Of a stretch of DNA of 64,000 bases, positions 8,618-43,537 are shown piece after piece. Each line of letters starts with the position of its first letter. Within the stretch, counting starts at the first letter, position 1. The notes beneath the pieces were generated by a model. It did not search any database. It worked only from the letters and a program-made list of their open reading frames with translations, and was not told the DNA's origin. Origin of the DNA: an uncultured Clostridia bacterium (GTDB taxonomy: Bacteria > Bacillota > Clostridia > Christensenellales > UBA3700). The stretch spans positions 124,001 to 188,000 of the forward strand of contig CAMQWP010000002.1 in assembly GCA_947038565.1 (NCBI GenBank), read 5' to 3'. The position numbers and the translations under genes are program-made.

Positions 8618-11386
8618 TTAGACAGATAATCTTTTCTTCATAAATATCACAGCTAATATAATAATCAAAATCAGTAATAATACACCAAAAATTGATCCTA
8701 CGATTATCGCAACTGGCACTTGACTTTCTATGACAAAACTAACAGTATTTCCGACTAATTCATAGTTAGTATCAATACAAGTAGCAGTAGCAACATACTC
8801 GCCCGCACCCAATAAAATATCTTTATCGTACGATATTACTAGATCTATACTTGCACCATTAACATCTACAAAAGTAGCAGTTAATACTACATCTTCATCA
8901 AGAATACCGTCTACTAATCCACTGAATACTACTTGTACTTTAGCCTTAGACACAGTAAGTTTCGCATTAAGATATTCGATATTATAATTAATTGATGAAA
9001 GTCCGCTCAGTACAATATCATACTCACCGACATTAGCATTATTTTCTTTATCGTAAGTAGTGCTATACAAAAGAACTCCAAGAACATCATTATTTTCATT
9101 ATTCACAAGCCCCGTGTAAGTTGCTGTGAATATTGGTAATTCCTGTCCATACTCAATAGTAAAACTATCAGCACCAACTGTCGCATCCATTTTATTTATT
9201 ACATATTCAAATTGTTTATCAGACGATATCGCATAGTTTTGATTATCTAAAACAGAATTAAACAAGTAACTTCCTGCATTGATAAACACCATACCATCAT
9301 TTATAGTTAGTGCCACGTTTACAGAATCGTTATGAATCAATCTTGATACAGTAGCGGTTACTTTTTCGCTCTGATCTAGTCCATTATATACAAATACTTG
9401 ATCAGGATTATCTATAATTATTTCAACCATTAATGGTGTGATAATCAAGGCATCAGCGATATTTATCTCATATTTGCTATGCGTCGTTGTCGCGTCTCTT
9501 AAAATCTGCACTGCATACGTTCCCACATTAGTAGGAGGAGTAACACTACTGTAACTCTCCCCAGCCAAAGACATACCTATATAATTAATAGTAAAATCAC
9601 CTAGCCCCGCATCTTGACCATTAATTTGATATGCAATGCTCTTACCATCATACTCCCTTGCGTCCAAAGGTGCAGTATCTATTACAATAGCTGGGAGAGG
9701 TTTTAACACTGCACTTAATTTGACAAAATCAATTACAGTATCCGCAGTAACATTCGCTGTATCTCCACCCAGAACACTTGACCAGCCTTCGTGAGAATAT
9801 CCTAGAGGTGGTGTAAATTCAGGTAATTTAGCACCAGCTACCCACTCACCATTAACTTTTTGCAGATTCATCGGCATACCATACAATTTTTCTTGATATT
9901 CTATTTCGATATTACTTCCATGATAGAATAGCAAATTAAGATTATAAGTTGTAGTTGTATTAGTTATGTTTTCGTGATGTTTGTACACTTCTACATTTTG
10001 AAATACTACAACAGGTTTCATATTAGTTGAAGTATTGAATGCTGCATCATCTAGCTTCGTAAGTTTACTTGTTTGCAACATTTCTATACTCTTTATACTA
10101 TAGCAGCTTCTAAAAATATTCTTGCTGATTGAAGTAACACTACTTGCTATCACTGCACTACTAAAATCTGTATAAGCAAATGCATCATAATCTATACTTT
10201 TCACACCCTCGGGTATGATTAACTTTCCTGATAGATTTTTGCATCCGTTAAAAGTGTTCTTCAGTATTTTTTCAAGCGTACTAGGGATAATTAACTCACC
10301 TTTAAAACCGCAATCCTTAAATGCTGATTCGCCTATACTTTCAACATTATTGCCTAGCTTAACACTACCTTTCAAATTGGTGCAACGGTAAAATGCAGTA
10401 TCACCTAGCGTAATCAGACTATCAGGAAGTATCAAATCACCTTTAAGTGATCCACAATTATAAAAAGCTCTATCACTTATAATCTCTACATTATTTCCAA
10501 TACTTATAGTACCATTAAATTTACATGTATCAAATGCCCTGCTACCTATATTCACTACATTATCACCAATTACTAGGTCACCACTGAACCCAGCACTTCT
10601 AAAGGCTTGCGCAGAAATTTCTTTTATATTATGAGATAGTGTAAGGCTGCCAGTAAATTTACAATTCATAAAAACCGATTGTCCAATTTGAACGATGTTA
10701 TCAGGAATAACCAATGATCCAGTGAAGCCGGCATCCGAAAACACGGCATTCTCAAGAACAGTAAGACCACTACCTAATACCAATGAACCCCTTAAGCCCG
10801 AACAAGTTTTAAATGCAGTAAATCCTATACTAGTCACACTATTCGGTATAGTAAGGTCACCAGATAATTTTTTACAACCTGAAAAACTAGCTGATCCAAT
10901 AGTTAATAGCGAGTTAGGTAGTACAATATTACCTGACATATTACTGCACCTAGAAAAAGCATTACCACCAATAGACTGTAGATTATTAGCATCGCTTAAA
11001 TCAAGTCTTACGATATTAGTTTTGCTCATAAATGCATTAGCTGCAATACTCAAAATTACTGCACCATTCACAGGATTGACTGCGGGAACATGTACTACAA
11101 GATTAGCTGTGCTTATATTTGTTGCACCAACCACTATCGTGCCGTTTGAACCATAAGTCAATTCAGCCAAAACCTCGCCCGGAGCAAGAGTGAAAACGGT
11201 ATCCGTATTAGTCACGCTTACATCATTGATAACATCATTTTCTTCTACCCCTGTATTAGCGATGTAAATACCATTACCACTTTGAGTATCAAGTGTAATC
11301 CACATTACTCCAAGAACAAAAATGATCATTGCAAATATGCAAAACATTGATAACCATTTACCCCTATGTAATTTTCTATCTTTCAT
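8618..11386 (-). CDS. large cell-surface protein with BspA-type LRRs, InlB-like and MBG domains
   Basis: A 922-residue exported protein. An N-terminal signal anchor (about 12-33) precedes about 13 BspA-type LRR_5 repeats of 23-24 residues (roughly 85-420; pattern G.L.IP..V..IG..AF..C). An InlB-repeat-like stretch around 500-540 (YSHEGWSSV) follows, then a string of Ig-like MBG domains (roughly 600-880). It ends in a membrane helix and a basic KKR tail. No LPXTG sortase motif is present, so the C-terminal helix is the likely anchor. Such proteins bind host or mucosal ligands or partner bacteria, inferred from the family. I chose ATG 11386 because GGAGG lies 8 nt upstream; an earlier ATG at 11401 overlaps that site. 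Confidence 0.88.
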   Translation of the reverse strand: MKDRKLHRGKWLSMFCIFAMIIFVLGVMWITLDTQSGNGIYIANTGVEENDVINDVSVTNTDTVFTLAPGEVLAELTYGSNGTIVVGATNISTANLVVHVPAVNPVNGAVILSIAANAFMSKTNIVRLDLSDANNLQSIGGNAFSRCSNMSGNIVLPNSLLTIGSASFSGCKKLSGDLTIPNSVTSIGFTAFKTCSGLRGSLVLGSGLTVLENAVFSDAGFTGSLVIPDNIVQIGQSVFMNCKFTGSLTLSHNIKEISAQAFRSAGFSGDLVIGDNVVNIGSRAFDTCKFNGTISIGNNVEIISDRAFYNCGSLKGDLILPDSLITLGDTAFYRCTNLKGSVKLGNNVESIGESAFKDCGFKGELIIPSTLEKILKNTFNGCKNLSGKLIIPEGVKSIDYDAFAYTDFSSAVIASSVTSISKNIFRSCYSIKSIEMLQTSKLTKLDDAAFNTSTNMKPVVVFQNVEVYKHHENITNTTTTYNLNLLFYHGSNIEIEYQEKLYGMPMNLQKVNGEWVAGAKLPEFTPPLGYSHEGWSSVLGGDTANVTADTVIDFVKLSAVLKPLPAIVIDTAPLDAREYDGKSIAYQINGQDAGLGDFTINYIGMSLAGESYSSVTPPTNVGTYAVQILRDATTTHSKYEINIADALIITPLMVEIIIDNPDQVFVYNGLDQSEKVTATVSRLIHNDSVNVALTINDGMVFINAGSYLFNSVLDNQNYAISSDKQFEYVINKMDATVGADSFTIEYGQELPIFTATYTGLVNNENNDVLGVLLYSTTYDKENNANVGEYDIVLSGLSSINYNIEYLNAKLTVSKAKVQVVFSGLVDGILDEDVVLTATFVDVNGASIDLVISYDKDILLGAGEYVATATCIDTNYELVGNTVSFVIESQVPVAIIVGSIFGVLLLILIIILAVIFMKKRLSV

Positions 11387-11979
11387 TAATAAATCCTCCA
11401 TATAATTTCTTATATACTAACACTAGCAAAACAATATTAAAAACACAATATCAATATATAACTTTAAGCTAGACGTATATATTTAAATAAGTTATAATTG
11501 CATTTTATCATGTGTTAGCTGTAATTCCAACTATTTGCAAAAGTATTATTGCAAATTTCGACATTAATTTACAATTTGAGCAATGTATATATATAAAATT
11601 TACTTAAAATGCATAGAGATTACACGCATTTTACATAATTTTACGATTTATATACATAAATCTAGCAAAATTATCAAAAAATAATAATCAATATCGTATT
11701 TAGTAAAGTATCAATTTAATTAAAACACTACTCTAATTTATTACATTAAATAATAATAGATATTGACAGTATATTTATTATATGTTATATTGGTTTTATG
11801 GGATATTTTTACAAGTTATGTTATTAAGTTCTTGATTATAATAAAATGGAATTAATTTTATCATTATGAAATACATTAGTAATGATATAGAGAAGATTAT
11901 TTGTGTGCAAAATAATCGCTTAAAGATTAAAAAAATTTATATAAAATCGCTTGTTTATTTATATCAGTAAGGAGGGTAA
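11387..11979. other. 590-bp divergent intergenic region
   Basis: No gene is visible. It separates the LRR surface-protein gene from the transporter operon and holds one excellent + strand promoter (11763-11791). The rest is extremely AT-rich without a clear repeat. Confidence 0.6.
11763..11791 (+). promoter_or_regulatory. near-consensus promoter of the GPH transporter operon
   Basis: -35 TTGACA (11763-11768, perfect), 17-bp spacer, -10 TATATT (11786-11791). It implies a leader of about 180 nt before ATG 11980. No riboswitch fold was recognised in that leader. Confidence 0.75.
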
Positions 11980-40731: not shown

Positions 40732-42894
40732 TTATTTTTTAAGCACTAGCGGAGCTAGCTTCAAGTTAAAGTTCTTATTGCCAAGTTTCGGAAAATTTAT
40801 CACTGCATTATCTCCGCTCCTTGACATTATATTACCCTCACCAAACCTAGAATGCACTACTACGCTTCCCACAACGAAAGCTGAAATATCCTTCTGTATA
40901 TCCGTTCTAATATTAGGACTAGCTGAAGGCACATGCACCTGTGATGCGATATTTTCATACTTAGATTTTTCCAATATTTCAAAGCTGTTAGGATCTTTCT
41001 TGATAAGATCAGCCTCAGTCACAAATCTACTTACAGCATTATACTCCACCTTGCCGAATCTAAATCTACTACCAGCACTGCTTATATAAAGTCGTTCTTT
41101 CGCACGGGTGATCGCCACGTACATACATCTACGTTCTTCTTCCATATCCGACGGATTAAGTAACGCTCTTGAAGAAGGGAAAATACCCTCTTCAAGACCT
41201 ACTAAAAATACAGTTTTGTATTCTAAACCTTTTACACCGTGGATAGTTGCCATAGTGATAAACTCATCATCATCAGCGTCATCACTATCACTAATAAGTG
41301 ATATTGACTGCATAAAATCCTCAAGAGTTGCACCATCATTCGCCTTGCAATACTCACGAACAACGCTTATAAACTCGTCGATATTCTCTAGCTTATTTCT
41401 CTCTTCTGGGATATCCATATCATACACTGAGTAGAAGTCAATACGCTCTACCATGTACGCTACGAATTCCTCAAAAGGCAAGTCAAGTTTCTTACGCATA
41501 AGGTCGACGATAAGATCACGGAAACTGCAAAATTTCGCCTTCATAGCATTCGCTAGCACTTCATTATTTTCCACATCTAAAAGCCCGTCTATAAAACTGA
41601 TACCTTTAGCGTAGCAATAATTACGCATTTTCTCGATAGCAGTATCGCCAATACCACGTTTAGGGAAGTTGATTATCCTGACAATACTCTCTTCATCATA
41701 AGGATTTGCGACCATTCTAAGGTACGCAATAGTATCCATGATTTCCTTTCTGTCGTAGAATTTAAATCCGCCTATCAGCTTGTACTTCATACCGTAAAGA
41801 TTCATTTTCTCCTCGAAAATACGAGTTAATGCATTGACACGCACAAGGATTGCAAAGTCTTTAAATGTATAATTATTATAATCAATAAGTTTCCTTATCT
41901 CTTGTAATACATGATCAACTTCTTCTTTATCATTAAAGCAGTTACGGTAATTTACCTTCATACCCTTATCAGACGCAGTCCAAAGCTCTTTACCCATACG
42001 CGTCTTATTATTCTTAATTACAGTATTTGCACAGTCGATAATATTGCCTGTACTACGGTAATTTTGTTGCAATTTATATGTCCTACATGTAGGATAAAAT
42101 TTCTTAAAATTGATTATATTCTCTACTTCTGCACCACGCCAGCCGTAAATACTCTGATCGTCGTCACCTACTACAAATAAATTCTTATGTACATGCGATA
42201 TCATTCTCACAAGTAGCATTTGTATCTTATTAGTATCTTGGAATTCGTCAATATGTATATACCTAAATCGCTCTTGATACTTCCTAAGCACGTCAGGAAA
42301 GTCTTTAAAAAGCAATACGGTTTTAAGAAGTAGATCGTCAAAATCCAAAGCATTATTTCTCTTTAGTTCCGATTCGTATTTCTTAAACACATCACGGATA
42401 AGATCGCAATTCTTACCGCCTAAATGATTGCAGTATGTATCCGCGTCGACACCCATGTTTTTAGCAGCAGATATATGATTACGGACAGTCTTTTTTACCT
42501 CATTGTCATCAATATTTAACTCTTTTAATATACGAGACACCACTCTCGCACTATCATTTGATGTGAATATAGAATAATTAGAAGTATAACCTAATTTATC
42601 TATATCATACCTAAGTACCTTCGCACAAAAACTATGAAAAGTAGATATCCAAGGCGTATTGCCATCAGTAGCAATGCCCATGACACGCTCTTGCATCTCC
42701 TTCGCGGCTTTATTTGTAAAAGTAATAGCGAGGATATTATACGCAGGCACACCCAACTCACTCATTATATATGATACCCTATGTGTAAGCACACGCGTTT
42801 TACCGCTTCCCGCACCAGCAAGAACTAGTACTGCACCTTCAGTATCTAGGACAGGTTTTATTTGTTCATCATTAAGTAGCTTAGTATAATCCAT
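40732..42894 (-). CDS. pcrA: ATP-dependent DNA helicase PcrA/UvrD
   Basis: A 720-residue superfamily 1A helicase. Walker A VLAGAGSGKTRVLTHR, motif II VVGDDDQSIYGWRGAEVENI, motif III/IV LQQNYRSTGNI, motif V TIHGVKGLEYKTVFLVGLEEGIFPS, and motif VI YVAITRAKERLYIS are intact. The C-terminal Tudor-like domain VGSVVVHSRFGEGNIMS, which binds RNA polymerase in PcrA, is also present. It acts in repair and in removing protein roadblocks. Promoter at 42922-42950. Confidence 0.97.
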   Translation of the reverse strand: MDYTKLLNDEQIKPVLDTEGAVLVLAGAGSGKTRVLTHRVSYIMSELGVPAYNILAITFTNKAAKEMQERVMGIATDGNTPWISTFHSFCAKVLRYDIDKLGYTSNYSIFTSNDSARVVSRILKELNIDDNEVKKTVRNHISAAKNMGVDADTYCNHLGGKNCDLIRDVFKKYESELKRNNALDFDDLLLKTVLLFKDFPDVLRKYQERFRYIHIDEFQDTNKIQMLLVRMISHVHKNLFVVGDDDQSIYGWRGAEVENIINFKKFYPTCRTYKLQQNYRSTGNIIDCANTVIKNNKTRMGKELWTASDKGMKVNYRNCFNDKEEVDHVLQEIRKLIDYNNYTFKDFAILVRVNALTRIFEEKMNLYGMKYKLIGGFKFYDRKEIMDTIAYLRMVANPYDEESIVRIINFPKRGIGDTAIEKMRNYCYAKGISFIDGLLDVENNEVLANAMKAKFCSFRDLIVDLMRKKLDLPFEEFVAYMVERIDFYSVYDMDIPEERNKLENIDEFISVVREYCKANDGATLEDFMQSISLISDSDDADDDEFITMATIHGVKGLEYKTVFLVGLEEGIFPSSRALLNPSDMEEERRCMYVAITRAKERLYISSAGSRFRFGKVEYNAVSRFVTEADLIKKDPNSFEILEKSKYENIASQVHVPSASPNIRTDIQKDISAFVVGSVVVHSRFGEGNIMSRSGDNAVINFPKLGNKNFNLKLAPLVLKK

Positions 42895-42921: not shown

Positions 42922-42950
42922 ATTCTATCACATTATCATACATATTGCAA
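42922..42950 (-). promoter_or_regulatory. promoter of pcrA
   Basis: On the - strand: -35 TTGCAA (42945-42950), 17-bp spacer, -10 TAGAAT (42922-42927), 28 bp from the ATG. Confidence 0.7.
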
Positions 42951-43025
42951 GTTATTATATATGCTATACCTACGTACTATCAAATATTCTTTTAGTCCTA
43001 TACAGTAATTATATTCCGTACAAAA

Positions 43026-43040
43026 TGATAATCATTATCA
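43026..43040 (+). promoter_or_regulatory. perfect Fur-type 7-1-7 box upstream of trxA
   Basis: TGATAATCATTATCA is an exact 7-1-7 palindrome identical to the Bacillus Fur box TGATAATnATTATCA. It ends 19 bp upstream of the trxA -35 element and 75 bp upstream of the pcrA -35 element. Confidence 0.65.
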
Positions 43041-43059
43041 AGAATTTACATAGAAAGCC

Positions 43060-43088
43060 TTGTAATTTGGTAAATAATGTGATATAAT
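43060..43088 (+). promoter_or_regulatory. promoter of trxA
   Basis: -35 TTGTAA (43060-43065), 17-bp spacer, -10 TATAAT (43083-43088), about 74 bp before the ATG, downstream of a Fur-type box. Confidence 0.7.
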
Positions 43089-43161: not shown

Positions 43162-43473
43162 ATGGTAAAGATATTAACAGATGACGATTTTATGAGTGTA
43201 ATAAAAGAAAGCAGTGTACCTGTACTAGTTGACTTCTATGCTGACTGGTGCGGTCCATGTAAAATGGCTGGCCCTATCGTAGAGCAAATAGCTGTAGAGC
43301 TTGAAGGCAAAGCGTTAGTTTGCAAGATGAATATAGACCAATGTCCTATCACGCCTGCACAATTCAACGTGTCAAGTATCCCTTGTTTTGTTGCTTTTAG
43401 TAATGGTAAAGAGTCTCACCGCCAAGTAGGTTTCTCAGGCAAACCTTCTATAATGAAGTTAGTTACTGAGTAA
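43162..43473 (+). CDS. trxA: thioredoxin
   Basis: A 103-residue classical thioredoxin. Active site DFYADWCGPCKMAGPIV with both Cys (about residues 30 and 33), the cis-Pro in SSIPCFVAFSNG, and the C-terminal helix. One extra Cys follows the cis-Pro (IPC), and two others lie in the middle (LVCKMNIDQCP). It reduces protein disulfides together with thioredoxin reductase, which is not in the window. Monocistronic, with promoter and terminator; the Fur-type box upstream suggests iron-linked control. Confidence 0.96.
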   Translation: MVKILTDDDFMSVIKESSVPVLVDFYADWCGPCKMAGPIVEQIAVELEGKALVCKMNIDQCPITPAQFNVSSIPCFVAFSNGKESHRQVGFSGKPSIMKLVTE

Positions 43474-43499: not shown

Positions 43500-43537
43500 T
43501 ATCCGCCAATAGCAGTCATATTGCTATTGGCGGATTT
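43500..43537 (+). terminator. terminator of trxA, possibly shared with the convergent gene
   Basis: A 14-bp perfect stem built on ATCCGCCAATAGCA and its complement, T-run on the + side. It lies between the convergent trxA and 43587 genes. Confidence 0.85.

Follow-up and report, generated by a model that had tools for sequence, protein, structure and literature searches.

The palindrome TGATAATCATTATCA, at positions 43026–43040 of the window (the whole 64,000-nucleotide stretch of DNA from an uncultured Clostridia bacterium that was analysed), is, judged from its sequence context, probably the operator of the only FUR-family regulator detected in the genome, a predicted PerR-type peroxide sensor that reads Fur-box-like sites. 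We infer, with good support, that the thioredoxin gene trxA downstream of the palindrome is under peroxide control, and thioredoxin is probably part of the peroxide and oxygen defence of this organism. The box, the promoter behind it, the diagnostic residues of the regulator and the recurrence of the box at peroxide and oxygen genes are all computed results.

The probable operator and the trxA promoter

An earlier note on this DNA had reported that the palindrome matches all 14 defined positions of the 7-1-7 Fur box and lies 19 bp upstream of a promoter TTGTAA-17-TATAAT preceding trxA. Both statements are exact: the operator, of the form TGATAATNATTATCA, is an unstranded feature at 43026–43040, and the promoter scan places, on the plus strand, the -35 hexamer TTGTAA at 43060–43065 and, after a 17-bp spacer, the -10 hexamer TATAAT, which is preceded by TG, at 43083–43088. 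The centre of the palindrome is at approximately -62 relative to the start of trxA transcription, which, like the other starts used here, was deduced from the promoter hexamers. It is highly likely that a FUR-family protein uses the site as a genuine 7-1-7 operator.

trxA itself (43162–43473, plus strand) encodes a 103-residue protein with the sequence WCGPC, which is recognised as thioredoxin by NCBIfam TIGR01068 (105 bits, cut-off 96.8) and Pfam PF00085, and because it is followed by a terminator-like stem-loop of the intrinsic kind at 43501–43535 (plus strand), it is likely to be monocistronic. On the other side of the box lies a divergent helicase gene (40732–42894, minus strand), which we take from its motifs to be of the UvrD/PcrA type, and whose promoter TTGCAA-17-TAGAAT (42922–42950, minus strand) was found by the scan and is kept in G001, a genome of the same genus.

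The regulator

A single FUR-family gene was detected in the genome, which comprises 2.09 Mb in 35 contigs and is 95.6% complete; the product has 125 residues and the gene adjoins a rubrerythrin gene. The earlier note had advised that fur, perR or zur genes be sought, and the one found is of the PerR type. Its nearest NCBIfam models are those of PerR (93 and 81 bits, both short of the curated thresholds, 200 and 180), with Fur scoring lower at 39 bits, and its best solved relative is the PerR of B. subtilis (PDB 2fe3). When the search was extended to 46 genomes of the family, eight had no match and a ninth had a weak match only. There were 39 strong matches, from which the first listed copy in G022 was dropped (it has an internal stop and gives no PerR-type ORF); six weak matches were also left out. 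The resulting alignment contains 38 proteins from 37 family genomes together with the 2fe3 stretch.

In all 38 family proteins, including the one from the own genome, H37, D85, H91, H93, Asp104 and four cysteines in two CxxC motifs are present. According to PMC8638851, sensitivity to H2O2 is set by residue 104, an Asp for PerR but a Glu for Fur, and the choice between a PerR box and a Fur box by residue 61, where PerR has Asn and Fur has Arg. All 38 proteins carry the Fur-type Arg61, and the Asn61 of PerR is found in none. On these residues, the family regulator is best described as a PerR sensor on a Fur-type DNA reader: its recognition helix has the arginine of Fur, and it would therefore read Fur-box-like sites. 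This combination would explain how a Fur-like operator comes to serve a peroxide regulon in a genome with no recognisable Fur. Separately, a perfect inverted repeat, AAATATTATC-ATA-GATAATATTT, was observed between perR and the rubrerythrin gene (locus L012, 1329–1351).

Recurrence of the box

The 220 nt upstream of each perR gene were scored against TGAKAATNATTMTCA, a pattern that was chosen after the perR boxes had been seen. A box matching at least 12 of the 14 positions is present in 31 of 37 regions (the perR of G035, with only 58 nt upstream, is excluded from this number), against 0 of 38 for the backward control. Such boxes are found at least once in each of the six genera, the perR genes being related to one another and not independent. 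Of the 31 boxes, 29 precede an exact TTGACA, with a gap of 5–8 bp in 20 cases and 13–18 bp in nine. A rubrerythrin ORF, whole or cut, was present in the fetched stretch for 33 of the 38 perR genes, and four of the five stretches without one are only 1.6 kb long. The own perR gene reaches only 10 of 14 against the strict pattern. Its box is centred at +11 and that of the G001 gene at +10; the perR box lies 3' of the -10 in two of the three genomes of the genus and upstream of the -35 in other genera. The trxA box, 19 bp 5' of its -35, has nearly the same layout as the family perR boxes, and the position upstream of the -35 and off the promoter, to which the earlier note had drawn attention, is thus shared with most of the relatives' perR genes.

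The exact pattern TGATAATNATTATCA occurs only once in the own genome, at trxA, and its backward control does not occur. Across the 46 family genomes the exact pattern occurs four times and its backward control not at all; the earlier note had judged a perfect palindrome unlikely to arise by chance at this place. Of the 34 genomes with a completeness of 90% or more, the own genome alone has such a site. Three of the four are at redox genes, namely trxA, a rubredoxin-[FeFe] hydrogenase gene in G001, where the site directly follows a TATAAT ahead of the gene, and perR-rbr in G030, where it lies upstream. The fourth is inside an ORF in G041, a genome in which the family search found no FUR-family gene. 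Promoter inspection found no good -35 for the G001 rubredoxin-[FeFe] hydrogenase gene. An ortholog of that gene was sought in the own genome and rejected, the only match being weak and incomplete (31% identity, E 3.8e-6).

Inexact matches weigh less. If up to one departure from the strict pattern is tolerated, the own genome yields 11 sites and the backward control 8; if up to three are tolerated, the window yields 25, a number that none of 100 shuffles reaches, their mean being 8.0. We read this excess in the window as AT-rich texture, which the shuffles seem to understate, since no comparable surplus over the backward control is seen genome-wide. Near matches alone cannot carry the argument, and looser matches are given little weight.

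The relaxed pattern TRAKAATNATTMYYR, which was widened to take in the box of the own perR gene, TAAGAATGATTACTG, finds 11 sites in the own genome, four of which are in the promoter regions of trxA, perR-rbr, a second rubrerythrin gene and a desulfoferrodoxin gene. There is no numerical excess (6 forward and 8 reverse matches, where the backward control gives 10 and 12); it is the locations alone that are telling. Of the other seven sites, four are intergenic, one of these standing between polA and a transporter-like gene; one is at a start codon, and two are within ORFs or at their margins. The second rubrerythrin (NF045767, above cut-off) has its box centred at +8 if TTGTAT-17-TATAAT is taken as its promoter, two others scoring equally. 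The proposed promoter of the desulfoferrodoxin gene (PF01880 above cut-off, TIGR00320 below), TTGCTT-17-TATTAT, begins 16 bp past the box, two other hexamer pairs scoring slightly higher. Outside the relaxed set, TGATAACTATTATCA, which departs from the strict pattern at one position, is found 9 bp 5' of a TTGTAA-17-TATAAT promoter, with the same hexamers as that of trxA, which precedes a flavin reductase-rubredoxin gene (PF01613, PF21349; G000:C27, locus L011, 1186–1896); this gene is likely to be co-regulated with trxA. An operator common to perR and peroxide-defence genes is found in this way, the own perR, second rubrerythrin and desulfoferrodoxin boxes being included through the relaxed pattern only; their half-sites read ATTACTA/G, versus ATTATCA in the trxA box, a difference that counts against the proposed reading.

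The Bacillus-type PerR box, TTATAATNATTATAA, was tried as the local operator and rejected. It occurs at 47 sites, its backward control at 28, and none of the 15 contexts judged by neighbour translation is at a redox gene, versus redox places for 5 of 19 Fur-like sites (Fisher P 0.04). Two further sites of the Bacillus-type box are in coding sequence and at a PEBP-like gene. At site 1501 of locus L009, TTATAATAATTATCA overlaps the -10 of a TTGACA-17-TATAAT promoter that precedes a PEBP-like gene; a divergent gene some 580 bp away has a product resembling hybrid cluster protein. At site 1501 of L201, TGATAATGATTACTA stands in a long stretch 5' of the DNA polymerase I gene.

Conservation in relatives

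G001 is the sole syntenic relative among the genomes compared. Its trxA is 72% identical, its pcrA-trxA intergenic region measures 163 bp, against 267 bp in the own genome, and it keeps both flanking promoters around a single gap of 101 bp. In the MAFFT alignment, with the ends read by hand, the segment that fills this gap in the own genome spans 42958–43058 (unstranded) and contains the operator. The box, whose conservation before trxA in relatives the earlier note had put forward as a check, is therefore missing from the one syntenic relative; it is also missing from all 24 other thioredoxin upstream regions that were scored, G001 included, in which the best match is 11 of 14 (five of 30 loci had been dropped because they had no WC[GA]PC ORF). 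Thioredoxin relatives in named genomes (80 loci, at most 53% identical) were not used for promoter conservation. The absence from G001, a kind of result that the note had listed as refuting its idea, limits the operator claim to the own species and does not undo the evidence for the operator, so that on present data the control of trxA appears to be a property of the own species. The segment 42950–43070 was considered as a repeat or mobile element and rejected: its only strong match is to itself, the next in the own genome having E 0.118, and in relatives there are short matches, the best with E 6e-4, over the palindrome or other pieces.

The relaxed pattern, counted forward and reverse, gives 6 and 6 matches in G001, against 2 and 3 for the backward control, and 5 and 6 against 1 and 0 in G002, another genome of the genus; each has nine relaxed sites. 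Those of G001 include three at redox genes (perR, a superoxide dismutase gene with the box 11 bp before its ATG, and the hydrogenase gene); the remaining six are split evenly between coding sequence and places ahead of, or between, other genes. One G001 site, CGATAATCATTATCA (L210, G001:C4:15670), stands just before an M60-like peptidase gene, an odd partner for such an operator. No clear peroxide gene was found among the eight G002 contexts examined, in which one relaxed site lies about 90 bp past the end of a thioredoxin-like ORF. Another of these G002 sites, TGATAATGATTACTA (L216, G002:C10:6454), lies about 300 bp 5' of the gene for an anaerobic ribonucleotide reductase (NrdD).

Proposed mechanism and alternatives

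We infer that PerR binds at TGATAATCATTATCA and that it responds there to iron and H2O2. Under anoxia, PerR carrying Fe(II) would occupy the site near -62 of trxA; oxidation of the iron-binding histidines by peroxide would then release PerR, and its release would shift the expression of trxA together with that of the other box-bearing redox genes, namely perR-rubrerythrin, the second rubrerythrin, desulfoferrodoxin and flavin reductase-rubredoxin. Repression would be exerted by covering the UP-element or alpha-CTD region 5' of the -35, and would be lifted by peroxide. Because the perR box is downstream of the -10 in the genus and upstream of the -35 elsewhere, while the need of the operon is probably the same, our analysis leans towards repression rather than activation at trxA. 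The position of -62, which is not a usual one for a repressor, speaks against PerR acting in this way, and if the same PerR operator instead served activation, in a class I-like geometry, then anoxic Fe-PerR would keep trxA on and peroxide would lower its expression. Upstream boxes are indeed found at trxA (gap 19), flavin reductase-rubredoxin (gap 9) and 29 perR genes, as well as, with one of its several candidate promoters, at desulfoferrodoxin (gap 16); the gap classes of 5–8 and 13–18 bp differ by approximately one helical turn; and operons of D. vulgaris with predicted PerR control fall under oxygen stress, according to a personal communication in PMC545781. The perR boxes at repressor positions in the same genus (own and G001) argue the other way, as does that of the second rubrerythrin, for one of its three equally scored promoters, and it would be odd physiology for defence genes to be activated under anoxia, so that activation, while it deserves to be taken seriously, is considered unlikely.

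If the palindrome were a chance product of AT-rich intergenic DNA, inside a 101-bp indel and bound by no regulator, then its absence from the syntenic relative would be expected, as would the near equality of one-mismatch sites and backward control in the own genome; the four exact sites against none, with three at redox genes, and the recurrence of the box at perR genes and own-genome redox promoters would not. A rough binomial estimate puts the probability of at least three further redox promoters among 17 sites at 1e-6 to 3e-4, assuming 10 redox operons of 250 bp and with patterns that were picked after the perR boxes had been seen, and we regard the chance origin as improbable. Even less credible is a true Fur box through which an iron-responsive Fur would repress or activate trxA according to iron status. 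The sequence does equal the 7-1-7 Fur consensus, and the only detected FUR-family protein does have the Fur-type R61, but that protein has D104 and not E, no second FUR-family gene was found in a genome that is 95.6% complete, and the boxes are at peroxide and superoxide genes instead. The iron genes covered were feoAB, whose upstream region has no box (best match 9 of 14), and downstream of feoB, past a small Cys-rich ORF, there is a DtxR/MntR-like gene (PF01325, PF02742), which suggests probable iron or manganese control independent of the FUR family. Control of trxA by iron through Fur, as the earlier note had proposed it, is therefore unsupported: the sole FUR-family protein detected has the sensing residues of PerR, feoB has a DtxR/MntR-like gene nearby, and the motif, whose presence at iron genes the note had named as a check, is missing at feoAB. 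The note had also suggested that thiol redox capacity might be tied to iron status or to peroxide stress, and of these the iron link finds no support at feoAB while the peroxide link fits the rubrerythrin, desulfoferrodoxin and perR boxes. It is very improbable, and the least likely explanation of all, that the operator serves the divergent pcrA gene, instead of or besides trxA: the box does lie between two divergent promoters, and a further minus-strand site resembling TTGATA-18-TATAAT ends at 42954, but it is about 75 bp from the conserved pcrA -35 as against 19 bp from that of trxA, and the other recognisable targets are redox genes. As a separate observation, feoA, feoB, the small Cys-rich ORF and the DtxR/MntR-like gene stand in that order on G000:C5 (loci L181 and L198).

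Relation to known systems

In B. subtilis, perR is autoregulated and its targets are peroxide-defence genes. The PerR of that organism (2fe3) shares with the present regulator the ligands H37, D85, H91, H93 and D104 and the two CxxC motifs, but here residue 61 is R and not N, the operator is TGATAATNATTATCA-like and not TTATAATNATTATAA, and the targets are rubrerythrin and desulfoferrodoxin genes. An engineered PerR N61R (Caux-Thang 2015, as cited in PMC8638851 and PMC8638967) has Arg in the recognition helix and reads the Fur box; the Arg61 described here is natural, and is invariant in 38 of 38 family proteins. A natural protein with the PerR-type Asp and the Fur-type Arg, LIMLP18590, is described in Leptospira (PMC8638851, PMC8638967), but its metal site is nearest to that of Zur (PMC8638967), whereas here all of the PerR ligands are present and the partner gene is rubrerythrin.

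Among anaerobes, the perR-rbr operon of Clostridioides difficile resembles the present one and is derepressed by peroxide; the PerR regulon there is, by its description, rather restricted (PMC8546684, PMC11980386), and the trxA1B1 operon is controlled by sigma-B (PMC10880999). The roo1-roo2 genes of Desulfotalea psychrophila have a predicted PerR site, GTTAATGATAATCATTAct, with a Fur-box-like core (PMC545781, Table 7), but the organism is a Delta-proteobacterium, the site is a prediction, and roo is an oxygen-defence operon and not thioredoxin. The PerR regulon of Staphylococcus reaches the thioredoxin system through trxB, that is, through thioredoxin reductase and not thioredoxin, and with a staphylococcal PerR box (PMC2869319, PMC4266091). 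In Synechococcus 7002 the reductase is again in the PerR regulon, and the thioredoxin genes are reported as unchanged in the mutant (PMC4628125). In the open-licence literature, a scope outside which most subscription papers fall, no report was found of a family-wide Arg61/Asp104 PerR, or of PerR controlling trxA at a Fur-like box.

It can be proposed, tentatively and as somewhat less than an even prospect, that in this family (37 of the 46 genomes) oxygen defence is governed by a natural hybrid of PerR sensor and Fur reader, whose operators are Fur-box-like, lie mostly 5' of the -35 and perhaps act beyond simple blockage, and that the regulon in this species takes in thioredoxin by way of the 101-bp segment between the two promoters. 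If this is true, then many “Fur boxes” in anaerobes without Fur may be peroxide operators, and the thioredoxin pool of this organism would be tied to peroxide sensing. A perfect Fur box need not imply iron control, and a natural misreading is thereby corrected. The residue-61 rule derived from the PerR mutation (as cited in PMC8638851) predicts that Arg61 and Asp104 should go together with Fur-like operators at peroxide genes, as they do across this family, and residues 61 and 104 would provide a simple sequence test for assigning the operators of FUR-family proteins in anaerobes.

Elsewhere in the window, positions 8618–11401 encode a large surface-type protein with BspA-type leucine-rich repeats and MBG domains.
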